Below, one piece after another: positions 23,737 to 34,650 of a DNA stretch of 55,181 nt. Each line of letters begins with the position of its first letter. Positions within the stretch are counted from its first letter, which is position 1. The notes below the pieces were generated by a model, which saw nothing but the letters and a program-made list of their open reading frames with translations, had not been told where the DNA came from and searched no databases. Made by a program: the position numbers and the translations under genes. The stretch covers positions 1 to 55,181 of the forward strand of contig CAIYSL010000106.1 in assembly GCA_903928915.1 (NCBI GenBank), given 5' to 3'. This stretch comes from an uncultured Syntrophobacterales bacterium. GTDB taxonomy: Bacteria; Desulfobacterota; Syntrophia; Syntrophales; UBA5619.

Positions 23737-26373
23737 TCAAAGGAGCTCGGGGAGCTTCTCCAGGGCCGCTTCCAATTGCTCCGGTTTCTGGCCGCCGGCC
23801 TGGGCCATGTCGGGCCGGCCGCCGCCGCTGCCGCCCACGAGCGGGGCAATGGCCTTGATGATGTTCCCCGCATGGTAGCGGTCGGTCAGGTCCTTCGACA
23901 CCAGGCACAGGAGCATCGCCTTGCCGTCGGCCCGGCTGCCCAGGAGAATGACCCCCGAGCTGAGCCGGTCCCGAAGCTTGTCGCCGAAGTCGCGCAGCGT
24001 CTTGACGTCGCCGGCCTCGACCACGGTCGCCAGCACAGCGACCCCGTTGATCGTGCGGACGCGGTCCAGCAGGTCGCCCGAATCCTTCGTCGCCAGCTTT
24101 CCCTTGAGGTTCTCGATCTCCCGCTCCAGCTCCCGTTCGCGCTTCAGGAGCTTCTCGGTCCGGTCGGCCGTCTCCAGCGGCCCGATCTTCAGCAGACCGG
24201 CGCACGTGCGGAGTTCCTCCTCCAGCCGCCGCACGTGCTCCACCGCCGCGGCGCCGGTCAGAGCCTCGATCCGGCGGACCCCCGCGGCCACGGCCGATTC
24301 GTGGAGGACCTTCAGAAACCCGATGTCGCCGGTCCGCGTCACGTGCGTGCCGCCGCAGAGTTCCCGGCTGTACTCGCCCATCCCGACGACGCGCACCGTC
24401 TCGCCGTACCGCTCGTCGAACACCGCCGTGGCCCCGCTCTTGACCGCCTCGGCAAGGGGGAGTTCTTCGGTCCTGACGGCGACGTTCGCCCGGATGATCC
24501 GGTTGGCCTCCCGCTCCACCGCCACCAGTTCCTCCTCGTCGATCCGGGAGAAGTGGGTGAAGTCGAACCGCAGGTGCTGGGCGTCGACGAGCGAGCCCGA
24601 CTGCTTGACGTGGCTGCCGAGGACCGTCTTCAGCGCTGCCTGGAGGACGTGGGTGCCCGAGTGGTTCGCCTCGGTGGCCCGGCGGGTCTCGTCGACCACC
24701 CGCAGGGTGACCGCATCACCCTTCCGGAGGCCACCCTTCGTCATCCTGCCCGCGTGGACAATCAGGTTCCCCAGCGGCCGCTTCGTGTCGGTGACCGTGA
24801 ACAGGCCCCCTTCCACCGTCGCGATCGTGCCGGTGTCGCCCACCTGGCCGCCGGTCTCGCCGTAGAAGGGGGTGCGCTCGACGATCACCTCAGCCTCCGT
24901 GCCCTCGGCGAGTGACTCGACAGGTTCTCCCTTCCGCAGGAGGGCCGTCACCTGCGACTGCCCCTGCGTGACCCCTTCGTACCCGACAAATTCCGTGGCG
25001 ATCCCCGCGACGGACAGGCGGTGGTACACGGCGGAGACTGCCTCCTCGCCGCTTCCCTTCCAGGACTCCCGCGCCTTCTCCCGCTGTGCCGCCATTGCCG
25101 TCTCGAACCCTTCCATGTCCAGGGTCAGCCCGTCCCTGCGCACGATGTCCGCGGTCAGGTCCGTGGGGAACCCGAAGGTGTCGTACAACCGAAACACCAC
25201 CTCGCCCGGGATGACCTTTGCCCCGGCCGCCGCGAGTTTGGCCACCTCCTCCTGGAGGATCCTGAGCCCGGCGTCGAGGGTGGCGATGAAGCGCTCCTCC
25301 TCGCTCTCCACGACCTTCCGGATGTAGGCGCTGTGTTCCGCCAGGTCGGGGTAGGCCCCCTTCATCTCGTCGATCACCACGCCGGCAACCTCGTGGAGGA
25401 AGGGGCGGTCGATCCCCAGGAGCTTGCCATGGCGGGCCGCCCGCCTGAGGATCCGCCGCAGGACGTAGCCGCGGCCCTCGTTCGAGGGAAGGACGCCGTC
25501 GCCGATCAGGAAGGTCACGGCGCGGCCGTGGTCGGCGATGACCCGGATGGAGACGTCGTTCTCGGGGTTCTGGCCGTACTTCCTACCGCTGATCCGCTCG
25601 ACGAACCGGATGATCCCGGTGAACAGGTCCGTGTCGTAGTTGCTCGTCACCCCCTGGAGCACGGCGGCCAGGCGTTCCAGCCCCATGCCCGTGTCGATGT
25701 TCGGCTTCGGCAGCGGGGTCAGCGTCCCCGCTGCGTCCCGGTCGAACTGGGTAAAGACCAGGTTCCAGATCTCCAGGTGGCGGTCGCATTCGCAGTGCAC
25801 GGAGCAGCCGGGCTGGCCGCAGCCGGTCCCGGGCCCCTGATCGTACAGGATCTCGGAGCAGGGGCCGCAGGGGCCCGTATCGCCCATCATCCAGAAGTTG
25901 CTCTTCTCCCCCATCCGGGCGATCCGCTCCGCCGCGACCCCCATCGAGCGCCAGATCTCGAAGGCCTCGTCGTCGTCCTGAAAGATCGTGATCCAGAGCC
26001 GGTCTGTGGGAAGCTCGAGAACTGAAGTCAGGTATTCCCAGGCCCAGGCGATCGTCTCCTTCTTGAAGTAATCCCCGAAGGAGAAGTTCCCCAGCATCTC
26101 GAAGAAGGTGTGGTGGCGCGCCGTGACGCCCACGTTCTCCAGGTCGTTGTGCTTGCCGCCGGCCCGGACGCACTTCTGGGAGGTGACCGCCCGCTTGTAC
26201 CCCCGGTCTTCCAGGCCGAGGAAGGAGTTCTTGAACTGCACCATCCCGGCGTTGGTGAACAGGAGCGTCGGGTCGTCCTTCGGGACCAGGGAGGAGCTCG
26301 CCACCCGTGTATGCGCCTTGCCCTCAAAAAACTGCAAATAACTCTCCCTGATCTCACTCCCCCGCATCGCCAT
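23737..26373 (-). CDS. alaS: Alanine--tRNA ligase
   Basis: An 878-residue class II synthetase charging tRNA-Ala. Catalytic domain: RESYLQFFEGKAHTRVASSSLVPKDDPTLLFTNAGMVQFKNSFLG at the N-terminus, then TGPCGPCSEILYDQGPG and FTQFDRD. Editing domain: NHSGTHVLQAAL and ELCGGTHVTRTGDIG, which supply the zinc-binding His and Cys residues. The C-terminal DHHA1-like region ends GGSGGGRPDMAQAGG. I chose the ATG at 26373 because AGGAGG lies nine bases upstream; another ATG at 26382 touches that site. It overlaps the 3' end of recX by 20 bases and is last in a six-gene minus-strand cluster. Confidence 0.96.
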   Translation of the reverse strand: MAMRGSEIRESYLQFFEGKAHTRVASSSLVPKDDPTLLFTNAGMVQFKNSFLGLEDRGYKRAVTSQKCVRAGGKHNDLENVGVTARHHTFFEMLGNFSFGDYFKKETIAWAWEYLTSVLELPTDRLWITIFQDDDEAFEIWRSMGVAAERIARMGEKSNFWMMGDTGPCGPCSEILYDQGPGTGCGQPGCSVHCECDRHLEIWNLVFTQFDRDAAGTLTPLPKPNIDTGMGLERLAAVLQGVTSNYDTDLFTGIIRFVERISGRKYGQNPENDVSIRVIADHGRAVTFLIGDGVLPSNEGRGYVLRRILRRAARHGKLLGIDRPFLHEVAGVVIDEMKGAYPDLAEHSAYIRKVVESEEERFIATLDAGLRILQEEVAKLAAAGAKVIPGEVVFRLYDTFGFPTDLTADIVRRDGLTLDMEGFETAMAAQREKARESWKGSGEEAVSAVYHRLSVAGIATEFVGYEGVTQGQSQVTALLRKGEPVESLAEGTEAEVIVERTPFYGETGGQVGDTGTIATVEGGLFTVTDTKRPLGNLIVHAGRMTKGGLRKGDAVTLRVVDETRRATEANHSGTHVLQAALKTVLGSHVKQSGSLVDAQHLRFDFTHFSRIDEEELVAVEREANRIIRANVAVRTEELPLAEAVKSGATAVFDERYGETVRVVGMGEYSRELCGGTHVTRTGDIGFLKVLHESAVAAGVRRIEALTGAAAVEHVRRLEEELRTCAGLLKIGPLETADRTEKLLKRERELEREIENLKGKLATKDSGDLLDRVRTINGVAVLATVVEAGDVKTLRDFGDKLRDRLSSGVILLGSRADGKAMLLCLVSKDLTDRYHAGNIIKAIAPLVGGSGGGRPDMAQAGGQKPEQLEAALEKLPELL

Positions 26374-26851
26374 GAACCTCATCCTCCTTGCCTTTCCATA
26401 CTGTTCTGTAGATAAGCGACCGGGGAAACCCCTTCCCCAGCAGGCCCCGGGCCAGGTGCAGCCGCTGCTTGTCGTCCAGCGGCGGGCAGGCCCGAGCGCG
26501 CTCCTTCCGGTGCAAGAGCGTCTCCACCGCCGCCGCCTCGGTCAGCTCGGCCCGCGCCTCGGCGATCGCCTGCCGGCTGAGCTCCTCCGGTATCCCCCGA
26601 TCGCGCAGGTCGCGGCCGATCCGGCTATCCCCGAACAGCCGGTTGACGGCCAGCTCCCGCGCCCGGCTGCGGGCGTACTGGGCGTCGTCGAGATAGCCGA
26701 GCCGGCGGCACTTCTCCAGCACGGCGGCGACGATCTCTTCGCCGAACCCGCGCTCGCCGAGCTTCGTCCGCAGCTCCTGCTCGCTGTGCGGCCTGAGCGT
26801 GAGGATGCGGAAGGCTGTTTTTTCGGCCTTCTGCCGAGACGGATCCTCCAT
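26354..26851 (-). CDS. recX: Regulatory protein RecX
   Basis: A 165-residue helical protein that inhibits RecA filament function. It has the family's three-helix repeats: AFRILTLRPHSEQELRTKLGERGFGEEIVAAVLEKCRRLGYLDDAQYARSRARELA, then RIGRDLRDRGIPEELSRQAI and LLGKGFPRSLIYRTV. It follows recA by nine bases and overlaps the alaS start, so the order recA-recX-alaS is preserved as one transcript. Its length is normal. Confidence 0.93.
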   Translation of the reverse strand: MEDPSRQKAEKTAFRILTLRPHSEQELRTKLGERGFGEEIVAAVLEKCRRLGYLDDAQYARSRARELAVNRLFGDSRIGRDLRDRGIPEELSRQAIAEARAELTEAAAVETLLHRKERARACPPLDDKQRLHLARGLLGKGFPRSLIYRTVWKGKEDEVHGDAGE

Positions 26852-26860
26852 CTGCTCCGT

Positions 26861-27886
26861 CTACGCCTCCTTCGGCGCGGCAGCCTTCGGCTTCAGCCCG
26901 AGCTTCTCGCGGACGTCGGCCTCGACCTTGGCCAGGACCTCGGGATTGTCCTTCAGGTAGATCCGCGTGTTGTCCCTGCCCTGACCGAGGCGCTCCCCCT
27001 TGTAGGAGTACCAGGCGCCGCTCTTCTCGATGATCCCGCGGTCGGCCGCCAGGTCCAGGACGTCGCCCTCTTTCGAGATCCCCTCGCCGAAGATGATGTC
27101 GAACTCCGTCTCGCGGAAGGGGGGGGCGACCTTGTTCTTGACGACCTTGACCTTGGTCCGAAACCCGATCACGTCCTGCCCCAGCTTGATCGCGCTGACC
27201 TTCCGGATGTCGAGGCGCATCGTGGCGTAGAACTTCAGCGCGTTGCCGCCGGTGGTCGTCTCGGGGTTCCCGAAGAAGACGCCGATCTTCATCCGGAGCT
27301 GGTTGATGAAGATCACGGTGGTCTTCGACTTGCTGATGCTCCCGGTGAGTTTCCGGAGGGCCTGGGACATCAGCCGCGCCTGGAGCCCCATCTGGGCGTC
27401 CCCCATCTCCCCCTCGATCTCCGCCTTCGGGACCAGCGCGGCCACCGAGTCGACGACCAGGACGTCCAGCGCCCCGCTCCGGACCAGGGTCTCGGCGATC
27501 TCGAGCGCCTGCTCGCCCGTGTCGGGCTGGGAGATGAGCAGGTCGTCGGTGTTGACGCCGATCTTCCGGGCGTAGGCCACGTCCAGGGCGTGCTCCGCGT
27601 CGAGGAAGGCCGCCAGCCCCCCCTGCTTCTGCGCCTCGGCCACGATGTGCAGGGCGAGCGTCGTCTTCCCGCCCGACTCGGGGCCGAAGATCTCGATAAT
27701 CCTTCCCCGGGGCACCCCGCCGGTACCGAGGGCCATGTCGAGGCTGATCGCGCCGGTGGAGATCGCGGCGATGTCGGGAACCGCCTCGGAACTCCCCAAC
27801 CGCATGATCGCCCCTTTGCCAAACTGCCGTTCGATCTGGGTGATCGCCAGTTCAACCGCCTTCCCCCGCTCCGTATCCGTTCCCAT
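26861..27886 (-). CDS. recA: Recombinase RecA
   Basis: A 341-residue recombinase. The N-terminus is [26 protein letters not shown]; Walker A is [13 protein letters not shown], Walker [12 protein letters not shown], the L2 region [28 protein letters not shown], and the C-terminal domain runs to [10 protein letters not shown]. It drives homologous recombination and LexA autocleavage. The ATG at 27886 has GGGGAGG ahead; an in-frame ATG at 27934 would add 16 residues unlike other RecA proteins. It lies in the middle of the pgpA-cinA-thpR-recA-recX-alaS cluster. No LexA-like box was seen in the 63 bp upstream. Confidence 0.97.
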
Positions 27887-27949
27887 ATGAGCCTCCCCTG
27901 AGCCTGTCCGTGGTTTTGTCTGTGCCGATGCCATCTGTCGCCTTGCGGC

Positions 27950-28543
27950 CTACCTCCCCTCCATCCCCGTACAGGGGAACCAGTTGAGTTTCGTGTATAC
28001 CGCGCCCCGGGGCGTAAGCTCGCTCCTGATCAGGCCGACCCCCGAAGCGGTAAACGCGCCCGCCGTCTGTTCCTCCCCCTTCTCCAGCGCACGCTCCAGC
28101 CCGGTCAGCCCCCGGGAGGACTTGATCCGCGCCAGGGTGAGGTGGGGGCTGAAGGGCCGCTCCTCTACCGGGAACCCGATCCGGCCGAGCGCGCCGTCGA
28201 GCCGCCGCTGGAAGTCGACCAGCCGCGCCACATCGCCCTCCATCCCCAGCCAGAGGATCCGCGGCCGGCGCCGGTCGGGGAATACCCCCGCCGCCCCCAC
28301 CGTAAAGGAGAAGGGCGCCTCCGCCGCTGCGGCCGGCCCGACCACCGCCGCGATCTGCCCGACGGCGCTCGCGGAGATGTCGCCGAAGAACTTCAGCGTC
28401 AGGTGGATCGCCTCGGGCCGGACCCACTTCAGCTCGCCCCGGATGAGCCGCTGCAGCCGGCCCTGGATCCTCCCGATCACCGCGCGGACCTCCGCCGGCG
28501 GTTCAATCGCCAGGAAGGCCCGGATCGTTCGCTCATCCGCCAT
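27950..28543 (-). CDS. thpR: RNA 2',3'-cyclic phosphodiesterase (2H family)
   Basis: A 197-residue 2H phosphoesterase that opens 2',3'-cyclic phosphates on RNA ends (formerly 2'-5' RNA ligase). The two catalytic HxT motifs are AIHLTLKFFGDI (about residue 46) and PHLTLARIK (about residue 135). The N-terminus RTIRAFLAIEPP is typical. Its start overlaps the cinA stop by 11 bases, and recA follows 63 bases downstream. ThpR between cinA and recA is a common order in related bacteria. Confidence 0.92.
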   Translation of the reverse strand: MADERTIRAFLAIEPPAEVRAVIGRIQGRLQRLIRGELKWVRPEAIHLTLKFFGDISASAVGQIAAVVGPAAAAEAPFSFTVGAAGVFPDRRRPRILWLGMEGDVARLVDFQRRLDGALGRIGFPVEERPFSPHLTLARIKSSRGLTGLERALEKGEEQTAGAFTASGVGLIRSELTPRGAVYTKLNWFPCTGMEGR

Positions 28544-29792
28544 CTGTTGCCTCGCCCCGAAGATAGCCGAGCAGGAGCATCAGGGCGCACTGGGAGGCCA
28601 TGACCTTGTTCCGGCGGCGGTCCCACCGGAAGGCGAAGTGCCTGGCGATGGTCGTCGCGGCGTCGGCCAGCGCGATGTGCACCGTCCCCACCGGCTTCGC
28701 CTCGGTCCCGCCGGCGGGGCCGGCGATCCCGGTGACCGCCAGCCCCAGGTCTGTCCCGGCGAGCCTGCGGACCCCTTCGGCCATCAGGCGCGCCGTCTCG
28801 GCGCTCACCGCGCCGTGCGCTTCGATCACCGCCGCGGGTACGCCCAGGAGCCCCTGCTTGGCGGCGTTGCTGTAGGTGACCACCCCCCGTTCGAGAAAGG
28901 CCGAGCTGCCGGGGACATCGGTCAGGCGGTCGCTGATCAGACCGCCCGTGCAGGATTCGGCGACGCCGAGGGTGAGCCGCCGCTCCGTCAAGAGCGCCGC
29001 GCAGATCGCCGCGAGCGTCTCGTCGCCCCGGGCGAAGATGTGCTTCCCGAGCCGCGCCTCGACGCGCCTCATCCCCTCCCGCATCTTCGGGGCGGCCTCG
29101 GCCGCCGAGGCCGTCCGCACCGTCAGGACGAGGTGGTTCTCCGGAAAGTTGGGGTAGAACCCCACCGCCACACCCAGGCCGGCCAGGTCCGCATCGGCCA
29201 GCGCCGCGTCCACCGCGGCCTCGGGGATCCCGAAGAGCTTGAAGGTCGCGGTTTCCACGTAGAGCGCCGCGTCCGGGAAGGCGCGCCGGAAGAGCGGGAT
29301 CACCCCCTCGCCGAGCATCCGGCGGGCCTCCGCCGGGACTCCCGGGATGACCGCGACGATCCTTCCCTGCCGCCGCAGGGCAAACCCCGCCGCGGTCCCG
29401 GTGGGGTTGGCGATCACCTCCGCCCCTTCCGGAAAATCCGCCTGTTTGGCGTTGTTCTCCGTCCAGGCCAGGCGGCGCGCTGCGAACAGCCCGCGGACGT
29501 GGGCCAACACGGCCTCGTCCCGCACCAGCGGCAGGCCGAAGGCCCGGGCCACGGACGCGGTCGTGATGTCGTCGGCAGTGGGGCCGAGACCGCCGGTCGC
29601 GCAGATTGCCTCGCTGCGGGCCAGGAGAAATGCGAGGCCGTCGCGGATGGCGGCCTCGTCGTCGCCCACCGAGAGCATCGCCGCCACGGACCACCCTTCG
29701 GCCCGCACCAGCCGGGCGATCAGGGCGGAATTCGTATCCGATATCCGCCCGCTCGTCAACTCGTTTCCGATCGTCAGTATGCCGATATCCAC
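28533..29792 (-). CDS. cinA: CinA: nicotinamide-nucleotide amidase / competence-damage inducible protein
   Basis: A 419-residue two-domain protein. The N-terminal molybdopterin-binding-like domain (VDIGILTIGNELTSGRISDTNSALIARLVRAEGW ... GGLGPTADDITT) has COG1058-type ADP-ribose pyrophosphatase character. The C-terminal CinA/PncC domain (TLGVAESCTGGLISDRLTDVPGSSAFLERGVVTYSNAAKQGLLGV ... GLAVTGIAGPAGGTEAKPVGTVHIA) is a nicotinamide mononucleotide deamidase. The start is GTG at 29792. It is coupled to thpR by overlap and preceded by pgpA 26 bases upstream. Confidence 0.94.
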   Translation of the reverse strand: MDIGILTIGNELTSGRISDTNSALIARLVRAEGWSVAAMLSVGDDEAAIRDGLAFLLARSEAICATGGLGPTADDITTASVARAFGLPLVRDEAVLAHVRGLFAARRLAWTENNAKQADFPEGAEVIANPTGTAAGFALRRQGRIVAVIPGVPAEARRMLGEGVIPLFRRAFPDAALYVETATFKLFGIPEAAVDAALADADLAGLGVAVGFYPNFPENHLVLTVRTASAAEAAPKMREGMRRVEARLGKHIFARGDETLAAICAALLTERRLTLGVAESCTGGLISDRLTDVPGSSAFLERGVVTYSNAAKQGLLGVPAAVIEAHGAVSAETARLMAEGVRRLAGTDLGLAVTGIAGPAGGTEAKPVGTVHIALADAATTIARHFAFRWDRRRNKVMASQCALMLLLGYLRGEATDGG

Positions 29793-29818
29793 CGCACTCC
29801 CCCAAACTCCGGACCTGC

Positions 29819-30277
29819 TCACACCACCCCGAACCGCACCAGCACCCGCAGGAGCGCCGCGGCGTACAGAGCCGCGGCCAGGTCGTCCGCGACCACCCCG
29901 TACCCGCCCGGGAGCCGTTCCTGAAACCGCCGCGCCGGGAAGGGCTTCACCACGTCGAACAGGCGAAACAGCACAAACCCCGCCGCTATGCGCAGCAGCG
30001 TCGGCTCGACCAGGAACAGGGTCCACTGGAGCCCGGCGATCTCGTCGATCACGATGCACTGCGCATCCTTCCTGCCGAACAGCCGCTCCGCCCCGTCGGC
30101 GAGATACCAGGCCAGGCAGGTGAAGGCCGCAAGCGTCAGCAGCCAGAGCGGCCCGGGAAAGGCCGAGAATGCCAGGTACAGCGGGATGCCGACGAGCGAT
30201 CCCGCCGTCCCCGGCGCCAGGGGGGCGTACCCGCTGCCGAGACCCGCGGCCGCCAGTTTGATCAGTTTTTCGTTCAG
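29819..30277 (-). CDS. pgpA: Phosphatidylglycerophosphatase A
   Basis: A protein of about 152 residues that dephosphorylates phosphatidylglycerol phosphate at the membrane. Family blocks are GLGSGYAPLAPGTAGSLVGIPLYL at the start, KDAQCIVIDEIAGLQWTLFL (acidic active site), and FRLFDVVKPFPARRFQERLPGGYGVVADDLAAALYA near the end. Three or four hydrophobic segments are seen. The expected start shows no ATG, GTG or TTG: a CTG at 30277 follows a GGGGGG stretch at a sensible distance and is the best candidate. It is first in the recA cluster. Confidence 0.86.
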   Translation of the reverse strand: MNEKLIKLAAAGLGSGYAPLAPGTAGSLVGIPLYLAFSAFPGPLWLLTLAAFTCLAWYLADGAERLFGRKDAQCIVIDEIAGLQWTLFLVEPTLLRIAAGFVLFRLFDVVKPFPARRFQERLPGGYGVVADDLAAALYAAALLRVLVRFGVV

Positions 30278-30683
30278 AGGATGCCCCCCCTTCGCGTCGG
30301 ATCCGGGACGGAGAATTCTCCATACCGGCCGCTCAATTAACCCTTTTTCGCCCCTCCTGTCAATCAGGACTTGCCGCTCCGCCGTCCGCATCCCGGCCGG
30401 CGGAATCCGGGGCGCTCCCCTTCCCGCAGCCGTGCTGCAGAGGCCTTCACAAATCCCTTGACAGTAGAACGATTGTTCTATTACACTGGAATCGGGAGAA
30501 AGGCAAGCGGTTTTTTGCGGTGAGCGCGTTGAGTATCCTGTTCCGGAGACGCGCATTGGAGATTTTTTCGGGGTACCCTGCCCCCCGCAGCGGAGCGAGG
30601 AGGTGCAGGGTCGGGAAAAGATCCGCGCGCGGAGGGAGAGGGTACTCATCGCGCCCTGCCCCGGAGGACCATAAGGAACCACC
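30278..30683. other. Divergent intergenic region, pgpA / dinB
   Basis: It contains the promoter and LexA-type palindrome at 30458-30486. Between 30487 and 30683 lies a GC-rich leader of about 200 bp. A GTG-started frame (30520-30687, 55 codons) crosses it and overlaps the dinB start by four bases. Its composition and lack of recognisable motifs argue against a real gene, but a leader peptide cannot be excluded. Confidence 0.6.
30458..30486 (+). promoter_or_regulatory. Promoter of dinB with LexA-type operator
   Basis: TTGACA (30458-30463) is followed by a perfect 16-bp palindrome, TAGAAC-GATT-GTTCTA (30465-30480), and a weak -10 around 30479-30486. GAAC-N4-GTTC is the LexA operator core of Gram-positive bacteria. 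Its position between -35 and -10 is where a repressor would block polymerase. It lies 188 bp from the divergent pgpA start. Confidence 0.82.
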
Positions 30684-32048
30684 ATGAGCGACATGCTATT
30701 CACCACCCACGACTGGCCGCGGGCGATCATCCACGTGGACGCGGACGCCTTTTTCACCTCCTGCGAGGAGGCGATCAACCCGGCCCTGCGGGGGAAGGCG
30801 ATCATCACCGGCGGCGAGCGGGGGATCGTGGCCTGCGCGAGCTACGCGGCCAAGGCCCTGGGGGTCACGCGCGGCGTCGCCCTCCACGAGGCCAAGCGGA
30901 TCTGCCCGGAGCTCGTCGTCCTCCCCTCCGACTACGAAACCTACAGCCTCTTCTCCCGGCGGATGTTCAACGTCATGCGCCGCTTCACCCCCCAGGTCGA
31001 GGAGTACTCCATCGACGAGGCCTTCGCCGACCTGACCGGGATGCGCCGACCGCTCCGGGCATCCTACGAAGCCATCAGCCTGAAGATCCAGGCGGAGATC
31101 AGCCGGGAGCTGGGGATCACCGTCTCGGTGGGGCTCAGCGTCACCAAGGTCCTGGCCAAGATCGCCTCCAAACGCCGGAAGCCCTCCGGGTTCACGGCCA
31201 TCCCCGGCCGGGCCATTGCCTCCGTCCTGGACGGGCTCCCCGTGGCGAAGGTCTGGGGGATCGGCCCCGCCACGACGGAGTACCTCGAAAAGATGGGGAT
31301 CCGCACCGCCCTCGAGTTCGTCCGGCTCCCCGCGGAGACGGTCCGCAAGCGGTTCACGAAGCCCGGGGTCGAAACCTGGCAGGAGCTCCGGGGGGAGTCG
31401 GTCTACCCCGTCCTCCCCGAGGAGAAAAGCGTCTATGCCTCGATCAGCAAGACCAAGACCTTCGCCCCGCCCACGGCCGACCGGGACTATCTGTTCGCCC
31501 ACCTGCTCAGGAACCTGGAGTCGGCCTGCATCAAGGCCAGGCGCCACGACCTTGCGGCCCGGCGGGTCGCCGCCTTCCTGAAGAAGCAGGACTTCGACAC
31601 CCGGGGGTGCGACGCGAAGCTCAACCGCCCCTCCGCCCATCCGCTGGAGCTGGCAAGCCTCCTGCGCGGCCTGTTCGACGAGCTCTACCGCCGCCACGAC
31701 ATCTACCGCGCCACCGGCGTGGTCCTGCTCGACCTGGTTCCGGACGCCCCGACCCAGTACTCCCTGTTCGAGGACCCCCTGAAGACGGAGAAGATCCGGG
31801 GGCTGTACGAGGCCGTCGACGCCCTCTCCGGCAGGTACGGGAAGCACACCCTCCACCTGGGCGGCTCGCACGTCATCGAGGTCAAGGGCAAGGGCCGCCG
31901 GGGCGCCCCCACCGTCCGCGAGCAGACCCGGCTTTTCGGCGAGACCCGGCGCCGGCACATCGGGCTCCCCCTCTTCCAGGGTGAGGCAACAGAAAACGGA
32001 AGACAGCAGTCGGCAAGAATTCTTGCTATACGGGGTGATGAGAGGTAG
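30684..32048 (+). CDS. dinB: Y-family DNA polymerase (DNA polymerase IV, DinB)
   Basis: A 454-residue translesion polymerase. Catalytic acids are visible: D19/D21 (IIHVDADAFFTSCEEA) and D111-E112 (EEYSIDEAFADLTG). The helix-hairpin-helix is KVWGIGPATTEYLEKMGI, and the little-finger domain follows (SVYASISKTKTFAPPTADRDYL). Q358-Y-S-L-F362 fits the beta-clamp binding motif QxxLF. Residues 370-454 form a basic, less typical tail, longer than in E. coli Pol IV (351 residues). A start at M4 is also possible. A LexA-type operator lies in its promoter, so it is probably DNA-damage induced. Confidence 0.93.
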   Translation: MSDMLFTTHDWPRAIIHVDADAFFTSCEEAINPALRGKAIITGGERGIVACASYAAKALGVTRGVALHEAKRICPELVVLPSDYETYSLFSRRMFNVMRRFTPQVEEYSIDEAFADLTGMRRPLRASYEAISLKIQAEISRELGITVSVGLSVTKVLAKIASKRRKPSGFTAIPGRAIASVLDGLPVAKVWGIGPATTEYLEKMGIRTALEFVRLPAETVRKRFTKPGVETWQELRGESVYPVLPEEKSVYASISKTKTFAPPTADRDYLFAHLLRNLESACIKARRHDLAARRVAAFLKKQDFDTRGCDAKLNRPSAHPLELASLLRGLFDELYRRHDIYRATGVVLLDLVPDAPTQYSLFEDPLKTEKIRGLYEAVDALSGRYGKHTLHLGGSHVIEVKGKGRRGAPTVREQTRLFGETRRRHIGLPLFQGEATENGRQQSARILAIRGDER

Positions 32049-32154
32049 GTACTATGGCCGGGCATGCGCTTACCTCATACCACGACAGGAAAGCAGAACC
32101 CTTGCACCCCCTGGACAGGCGGGGAGAAGGCGACCGCGGTCGGATTTACATCGA

Positions 32155-34650
32155 TCAGCCCGCCCCGGCGGGCGCGCCGAGGATCTCCCGGACCTTGGCC
32201 GTCAGGGCCTGGACGGTGAATGGTTTCTGGAGGAAGGAAAGCCCTTCGTCCAGGACGCCGTGGTGGGCAATGACGTTTGCGGTGTACCCGGACATGAACA
32301 ACACCCGGAGCCCCGGGCGGATTTCAGAGACCTGTGCGAACAGCTCCTTCCCGTTCATGTCCGGCATGACCACGTCGGTCAGTAGCAGATCGACAGGGTC
32401 CGCGTGTTCCGCCAGCGTCCGCAGGGCCTCGGCGCCGCTGGCGGCGACCAGGACCTGATACCCTTGTCTCGCCAGGATGGTTCGCGCCAGGGACCGCACC
32501 ATCGCGTCGTCCTCCACGACGAGGATTGTTTCGGTCCCCCTGAGCAGGTCGCCCGTTTGCGCGGGGGGCGGCGGCCGGACCGCCCCCTCCGCCGCGGCAG
32601 GGAGGTACGTCTTGAACGTCGTCCCTCTCCCCTTCTCGCTGTAGACCCAGATGTTCCCGCCATGCTGCTTGACGATGCCGTACACCGTGGCGAGGCCGAG
32701 GCCCGTCCCGAGTTTCCCCTTGGTCGTGAAAAAGGGCTCGAACATGTGCGCCCGGATCTCCTCGTCCATTCCCTGGCCGGTGTCGGACACGGTCAACTGG
32801 ACATAGCGGCCCGGCGTTACGCCGGCATGGGTACGGCAGTACTCCTCGTCCAGCTCCGCGTCGGCAACCTCGATCGTCAGGCGCCCTCCGTCCGGCATGG
32901 CATCCTGGGCGTTCACCGCCAGGTTGATCAGGACCTGCTCGACCTGTCCCCGGTCGATCAGGGCGGTGCAAGGGCCCTTCCCAAACACCGTCTCAATCGT
33001 CACGTTCTCCCGGATCATCCGGCGAAGCAAGCCGTTCATCTCCTCCACGATCGACCGCAGGTCCGTCACCTTCAACTCCAGCATCTGTCTGCGCCCGAAG
33101 GCGAGGAGCTGACGGATCAGATCGCGCGACCGCTGCCCCGCCTTCACGATCTCCTTGACCTGTCCGCGTGCCTCGCCGGCGGGGTCGAGGTCGAGCAGGA
33201 GCAATTCGGCGTAGCCGAGGATGGGGGAAAGGAGATTGTTGAGGTCGTGGGCGACCCCGGCCGCCAGCTGTCCCACCGATTCGAGCCGCTGGCTCTGGCG
33301 GACCTGCTCTTCCATCTCGATCTCCCGGGAGACGTCCCGTTTCACGGCGACGAAATACTCGATCACCCCCTGCTCGTCCTTCACCGGCGAAATGGTGCAG
33401 TCCTCCGTGTACAGCCCCCCGTCCTTCCGCTTGTTGACGATGCGGCCGGACCAGGTGTTGCCGGCGGTGACGGTCTCCCAGAGCGTGCGGTAGAACGCCG
33501 CGTCCTGCACGCCGCTCTTCAGGATGCGGGGATTCTCGCCCGCCACTTCGTCGCGGCCGTACCCGCTGACCCGTTCGAAGGCGGGGTTGACGTACTCGAT
33601 CCGCGCGGCGGGGTCGACGATGCAGATCGCTTCCGCCGCCTGGTTGACGGCTTCCGCCAGGCGGCGCAGCGTTGCCGCGGCCTGATGCTGTTCCTCTTCC
33701 GCCGACCGGCGCTGCAGGGCAAGCGAGGTGAGCAGCGCGTAGGCCTCGATCAGTTCGGTATCCGCCTCCACGCCGGCCTTCAGGCCGATGACGGCGTTGC
33801 CGTACAGCCGCCCCTCGTGCACGAACCCGATGGTGTAAATCTCCCCCAGGCCGAACGCCGTCTCCGCAAGGACACACAGCGGACGGGGTATCCGGCCGAA
33901 CAGGAGGTCGTACAGCCCGCCGGGAATCAGCACCAGCCTCCCCTTCCGGATTTCCGCCCGGGCCGCGGCGGAAGTGATCGGGTAGGTCGCCCCGATCGGG
34001 CCCTGGCCCATCATCTCCAGGAATCTCCCGGCAACTTCCGGCAATCCGAAGAAGGAACGGGTGGTCAGGCTGTCGGTCCCTGCGTCGTACTCGTTCACCC
34101 CGACGAACAGTGCGCCGGTCAACCCTGCCAGCCGGTCGGCGAGAAACTGGTACAGCTCCTCCCGGGGGGAAAGGGCGAGCAGGTCGAAGGCCGTCTCCTT
34201 GAGCTGGGACAGGGTGCGCTCGGTCCGCGTGGAGCGGGCCTCGAGTCTCTTCCGCTCGGTGATGTCGCGCCCGACCGACAGAACCTCGCGGACCTGCCCA
34301 TCGACGCCTCGGATCGGCTGGTCGATCCACTCGTGCCAGCGGCCGTTTCCGTTCGCATCCCTGCTCTGATGCTCGCGCCGGTGCACGCCCGGTCCGTCCC
34401 GGCAGCCCTGCACCGCCCGGGAAATGGCGGCCCGCTCCCCGGCGGGGATCAGATCGATGAACCGCGTCCCGATGATCGCCTCCCGGGTCTTGTCGAAATA
34501 CCGGCAGTAGGCGTCGTTCGCGAAGGTCAGGGTCGTATCGGGCTGCCAGCGGCAGATCATCTCCGTCTGATGATCGACGATGAACCGGAGCTCCTCTTCG
34601 CGCCGAATGAGTTCGGCAAGCTGCTTCCCGGTGATATCCTCGGCGCGCAT
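32155..34650 (-). CDS. Hybrid sensor histidine kinase (PAS-GAF-PAS-HisKA-HATPase-REC)
   Basis: An 831-residue soluble kinase. An N-terminal PAS (about 15-145, LRFIVDHQTEMICRWQPDTTLTFANDAYCRYF) with a PAC-like end is followed by a GAF-like region (about 165-310), a second PAS (about 325-450, ICIVDPAARIEYVNPAFERVSGYGRDEV), a HisKA domain with H468 (AAGVAHDLNNLLSPILGYAELLL), an HATPase with NAQDAMPDGG and GTGLGLATVYGIVKQHGG, and a receiver with D759 (LLLTDVVMPDMNG) and K809. There is no membrane segment, so it senses a cytoplasmic signal. No separate response regulator is adjacent. It converges on dinB. Confidence 0.92.
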   Translation of the reverse strand: MRAEDITGKQLAELIRREEELRFIVDHQTEMICRWQPDTTLTFANDAYCRYFDKTREAIIGTRFIDLIPAGERAAISRAVQGCRDGPGVHRREHQSRDANGNGRWHEWIDQPIRGVDGQVREVLSVGRDITERKRLEARSTRTERTLSQLKETAFDLLALSPREELYQFLADRLAGLTGALFVGVNEYDAGTDSLTTRSFFGLPEVAGRFLEMMGQGPIGATYPITSAAARAEIRKGRLVLIPGGLYDLLFGRIPRPLCVLAETAFGLGEIYTIGFVHEGRLYGNAVIGLKAGVEADTELIEAYALLTSLALQRRSAEEEQHQAAATLRRLAEAVNQAAEAICIVDPAARIEYVNPAFERVSGYGRDEVAGENPRILKSGVQDAAFYRTLWETVTAGNTWSGRIVNKRKDGGLYTEDCTISPVKDEQGVIEYFVAVKRDVSREIEMEEQVRQSQRLESVGQLAAGVAHDLNNLLSPILGYAELLLLDLDPAGEARGQVKEIVKAGQRSRDLIRQLLAFGRRQMLELKVTDLRSIVEEMNGLLRRMIRENVTIETVFGKGPCTALIDRGQVEQVLINLAVNAQDAMPDGGRLTIEVADAELDEEYCRTHAGVTPGRYVQLTVSDTGQGMDEEIRAHMFEPFFTTKGKLGTGLGLATVYGIVKQHGGNIWVYSEKGRGTTFKTYLPAAAEGAVRPPPPAQTGDLLRGTETILVVEDDAMVRSLARTILARQGYQVLVAASGAEALRTLAEHADPVDLLLTDVVMPDMNGKELFAQVSEIRPGLRVLFMSGYTANVIAHHGVLDEGLSFLQKPFTVQALTAKVREILGAPAGAG

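Follow-up and report, generated by a model that had tools for sequence, protein, structure and literature searches.

A predicted LexA operator with a Gram-positive-type core in a dinB promoter of a Syntrophales-like genome

Here, we report a palindrome, TAGAAC-GATT-GTTCTA (TAGAACGATTGTTCTA), that lies at positions 30465-30480 of the window (the whole stretch of DNA analysed, 55,181 nucleotides) and is very probably the operator of the genome's own LexA protein, controlling dinB; a mechanism and a history of the locus are proposed below. The first-pass annotation had suggested that a GAAC-N4-GTTC LexA box controls dinB, and this finds support in the same box at the genome's own lexA, by specificity across the whole genome and by conservation across the order. 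The annotation had called the palindrome perfect: its 6-bp arms are, while the GATT centre is not self-complementary. As claimed, the box occupies the spacer between the -35 (TTGACA, from 30458) and the -10 (TACACT, from 30482) of the dinB promoter; a search of 26000-32500 found no other sigma-70-like promoter. It is located 203 bp from the dinB ATG (30684). It also lies upstream of the divergent pgpA, at 187 bp from the CTG start codon (30277) instead of the 188 bp given before. The features of the promoter and gene are as follows.

30458..30463, plus strand: -35 hexamer TTGACA of the dinB promoter, from a promoter search; kept in relatives
30465..30480, plus strand: predicted LexA operator TAGAAC-GATT-GTTCTA, whose arms recur unchanged in this genome at the promoters of lexA and the second dinB
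30482..30487, plus strand: -10 hexamer TACACT of the dinB promoter, the best -10, with an 18-nt spacer
30684..32048, plus strand: dinB, Y-family DNA polymerase of 454 aa, IMS and IMS_C models over cut-off

The best NCBIfam match of dinB is PRK02794, below the cut-off of that model. A Geobacter context, implied earlier, proved wrong: the nearest DinB relatives are from Syntrophaceae and the genome is a Syntrophales-like MAG.

Within the genome, the perfect box occurs at three sites, compared to none for a reversed control pattern. These precede lexA, the dinB of the window and a second dinB (C98:170278). Searching 4.34 Mb for a composite of promoter and box (TTGAC-N2-TAGAAC-N4-GTTCTA, up to three mismatches) retrieved exactly three places, the lexA promoter and both dinB promoters, each with 0 mismatches. 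Thus, the extended motif is far above the background frequency that the first-pass annotation had allowed for. The genome was scanned by patterns with mismatches, so that weaker, half-conserved sites may be missed. The bare GAAC-N4-GTTC core was dropped as evidence because it is too common (109 matches in the genome). Other instances of this core in the window (12711, 36021, 36459, and 52469, the third of which falls at the end of a coding frame) are not matched by the composite pattern. Two sites with one mismatch were rejected as operators: C39:30238 sits inside a coding frame, and C87:53496 has no TTGACA at the right distance. What the SOS-gene promoters contain is the GAAC-N4-GTTC core with its 4-bp spacer, which is the mark of a Gram-positive-type LexA operator.

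The first-pass annotation had proposed looking for lexA in the genome, and a LexA is indeed encoded at C79:22457-23014. It scores 121.4 bits with TIGR00498, the NCBIfam LexA model (cut-off 110.95), and the S24 peptidase model PF00717 agrees. The Pfam LexA DNA-binding model PF01726 finds no match at E<=0.001 across the whole genome and, run on this protein alone, gives 11.9 bits, under its cut-off of 23.7. A genome without LexA, as PF01726 by itself would suggest, is ruled out by the TIGR00498 and PF00717 matches. The low PF01726 score counts against reading the box as a LexA operator and indicates that the DNA-binding domain is divergent. The protein has 195 aa and is colinear with Escherichia coli LexA over residues 7 to 192 in a profile alignment. 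Its self-cleavage site (A80-G81) and catalytic dyad (S116/K153) are invariant in the aligned sequences of ten relatives and align with the corresponding E. coli residues. An AlphaFold model (two sequences) of the relative in L020 shows three helices and a two-strand wing at low confidence (pLDDT 61), and its nearest solved folds are LexA proteins; base contacts are not readable from so weak a model. The binding specificity of the C79 LexA is predicted purely from operator conservation. The promoter of lexA itself (L042) reads ttgacaaTAGAACGAATGTTCTAtatacggg, with the same box and layout as the dinB promoter.

Across 108 genomes of the order, we counted 199 perfect boxes, against 54 for the reversed control. 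The box is present in 87 of the 90 genomes with this LexA type and in 8 of the 18 without it (Fisher p 2.6e-7, uncorrected for kinship). These eight genomes argue against the LexA-operator reading; in at least two of them the box belongs to IS91 elements, and it is possible that MAG gaps explain the missing LexA. In the rest of the phylum sample, a perfect site was found in only 3 of 114 genomes. TTGAC ends 1-3 nt upstream on one strand at 62 of 73 examined sites, compared to 1.5% of random positions. Genes behind 68 promoter-oriented sites were assigned by tblastn, and lexA (42) and dinB (11: DinB1 7, DinB2 4) dominate, followed by IS91 transposase (3), with 12 unassigned. The box is conserved at dinB in relatives from other families, and 16 of the 17 relatives examined that have this LexA type carry it without mismatch at the lexA promoter. 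The exception (L028, G026) has the same LexA type and carries TGGTAC-N4-GTACTA, possibly a co-evolved operator, and no perfect consensus box was found in its genome. The promoters of two canonical-type lexA genes (L023, L024) lack the box. Elsewhere (L059, G031), a perfect promoter-embedded box precedes a gene that by eye is dCTP deaminase-like, in a genome with a canonical-type LexA. The specificity within the genome, the conservation across the order and the dominance of lexA and dinB together indicate that the box is very probably a LexA operator and that the SOS regulon it belongs to is very small, with strong sites at lexA and two dinBs in this genome.

The first-pass annotation had further suggested that one box controls recA too. 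The genes and promoter on that side are listed here.

30358..30363, minus strand: -35 TTGACA of the recA-cluster promoter P2, invariant in six aligned loci
30335..30340, minus strand: -10 TTAATT of P2, with a 17-nt spacer
29819..30277, minus strand: pgpA, apparently with a CTG start, profile match
28533..29791, minus strand: cinA, start approximate, profile match
27950..28543, minus strand: thpR (RNA 2',3'-cyclic phosphodiesterase), TIGR02258 over cut-off
26861..27934, minus strand: recA, TIGR02012 557 bits
26354..26851, minus strand: recX, several RecX models, all below their own cut-offs

The alaS of the cluster was read as an ORF only. Many relatives likewise have CTG at the position of the apparent pgpA start (30275-30277), and others have GTG or TTG there. 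P2 (TTGACA-N17-TTAATT, 30363-30335) is conserved and faces pgpA-cinA-thpR-recA about 100 bp from the box, which at that distance would not cover it, and no box lies nearer to recA than the one at 30465-30480. Joint control of dinB and the recA cluster would instead depend on a promoter farther upstream (P1) with a -10 that runs into the box edge. The P1 of the window (TTGCCT-N15-TGTAAT) is degenerate: its -35 is poor, its spacer is short and its -10 carries a mutation. Close relatives have TTGCCT-N15-TATAAT in its place. The idea gains from the order at large, where the arrangement box-pgpA-cinA-thpR-recA is widespread, and it fits some relatives because there the box overlaps a promoter of the recA cluster. 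For example, in the g29 genomes (L113, L115, L159, L182) the box covers the TATAGA -10 of a TTGACA promoter facing pgpA, and the same overlap is seen in genus g9 (L165-L167) and in G030 (L158). In the four g29 loci, the box is kept with a mobB-like gene on one side and the pgpA-recA cluster on the other, and neither lexA nor dinB is there. The lexA-side promoter has decayed beside the retained box in L113 and L115; since the box survives by pgpA, it probably serves the recA cluster in these two. We therefore find joint control unsupported and unlikely for the window itself, and box control of the recA cluster, judged from these promoters, to be plausible in relatives and rather unlikely in this genome.

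A different regulator could also bind the box. The genome encodes, for example, a second S24 protein (C98:64200) that is a cI-like repressor, and in Bacteroidetes control of the SOS response has passed to repressors of this kind (PMC8565304). Binding by another regulator seems very improbable, given that the genome's own lexA and most lexA genes of the order carry the box in their promoters, and that it tracks the presence of LexA. The second S24 protein (L017 868-1839, contig C98 of this genome) is cI-like and probably a prophage-type repressor. That the palindrome arose by chance in an otherwise ordinary dinB promoter, for which the commonness of the short core might speak, has a negligible likelihood: in its extended form, embedded in a promoter, the motif occurs at SOS promoters alone, and it is kept at orthologous dinB promoters in other families.

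With the palindrome read as the LexA operator of dinB, the loci fetched around recA in the order suggest how it came to its place. The pgpA-cinA-thpR-recA genes are conserved in these loci, and lexA or dinB is commonly divergent from pgpA with the box in between. In a close relative, Syntrophus sp. GWC2_56_31 (L021), the arrangement is pgpA <- box -> lexA-dinB, and the leader of this lexA-dinB operon shares a segment with the window.

30499..30516, plus strand: leader AAAGGCAAGCGGTTTTTT, found also in front of dinB in relatives and of the lexA-dinB operon in L021
30540..30640 (approximate), plus strand: palindromic dispersed repeat inserted in the dinB leader, with copies elsewhere in the genome; predicted hairpin

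Because lexA-dinB of L021 has the same promoter and leader, the window dinB probably inherited a lexA promoter, from a lexA-dinB operon divergent from pgpA-cinA-thpR-recA; the order of events that we infer is loss of lexA from this locus, with dinB keeping the operon promoter. The repeat matches the genome at 22 other places, in full or in part, and has a strong predicted RNA hairpin (z -4.4).

Mobile elements carry the box as well. IS91-type transposase genes with a LexA box behind TTGACA were seen at L049, L058, L064, L100 and L200, in four genomes of the order and in one outside it (G178). G178 is one of the three genomes with a site in the rest of the phylum sample, and the site that was read there precedes such a transposase. 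The copy in the genome studied here (L049 1501-1516; C119:170298) has one mismatch and the others are perfect. Thus, an IS91-type transposon family appears to carry the SOS operator of the order, suggesting that rolling-circle transposons become coupled to the damage response of the local host. In another genome (L107, G083:C64), a TnpB-like gene is directly behind a perfect promoter-embedded LexA box.

The predicted mechanism is the standard LexA one. A LexA dimer seated on the box, in the spacer of the dinB promoter, would obstruct RNA polymerase there. After DNA damage, RecA would be loaded onto single-stranded DNA and trigger self-cleavage of LexA at Ala80-Gly81, which would release dinB along with lexA and the second dinB. 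The recA cluster would most likely be read mainly from its own promoter, beyond the reach of LexA. LexA binding, repression and induction at these promoters are what we infer from sequence. We also consider a broader scenario, on which our judgment is evenly balanced. It holds that the whole order, within Thermodesulfobacteriota, pairs a divergent LexA with an operator of Gram-positive-like type, that its regulon has shrunk to little more than lexA and Y-family polymerases, that recA was gained or lost by shifts of the divergent promoter under the shared box, and that IS91-type transposons captured the operator and spread it beyond the order, to one genome or more. These results provide a predicted SOS operator for an order whose members are anaerobic and largely syntrophic, and they point to a minimal damage regulon with error-prone polymerases at its core. 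The divergent promoters form a natural series for testing whether one shared box governs recA.

Open-access LexA literature on Syntrophus, Deltaproteobacteria, and Desulfobacterota yielded no description of this operator. The box is very probably a LexA operator whose core type is already known, and we found no earlier account of one from this lineage. The LexA of Geobacter sulfurreducens was reportedly the subject of a study by Jara in 2003. It belongs to the same former class (Deltaproteobacteria), its lexA is autoregulated, as is predicted here, and it is reported not to bind the recA promoter. The operator, however, is entirely different: LexA operators vary widely, and that of G. sulfurreducens is GGTT-N10-AACC (PMC8565304). 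The box at IS91-type genes resembles the LexA-regulated promoters of ISCR transposases, which are IS91 relatives. The ISCR promoters have an E. coli-type CTGT-N8-ACAG box supported by gel shift (PMC13393415), whereas the Syntrophales-type box is known at IS91 from sequence. The Syntrophales box is also close to the Bacillus subtilis LexA box, CGAAC-N4-GTTCG (as cited in PMC3091678), with which it shares the GAAC-N4-GTTC core, the rigid 4-bp spacer and a position in promoters of lexA and DNA-repair genes. In contrast to B. subtilis, the Syntrophales box is flanked by TA and TA rather than by C and G, the DNA-binding domain of LexA is divergent, and the strong sites are only those of lexA and the two dinBs.
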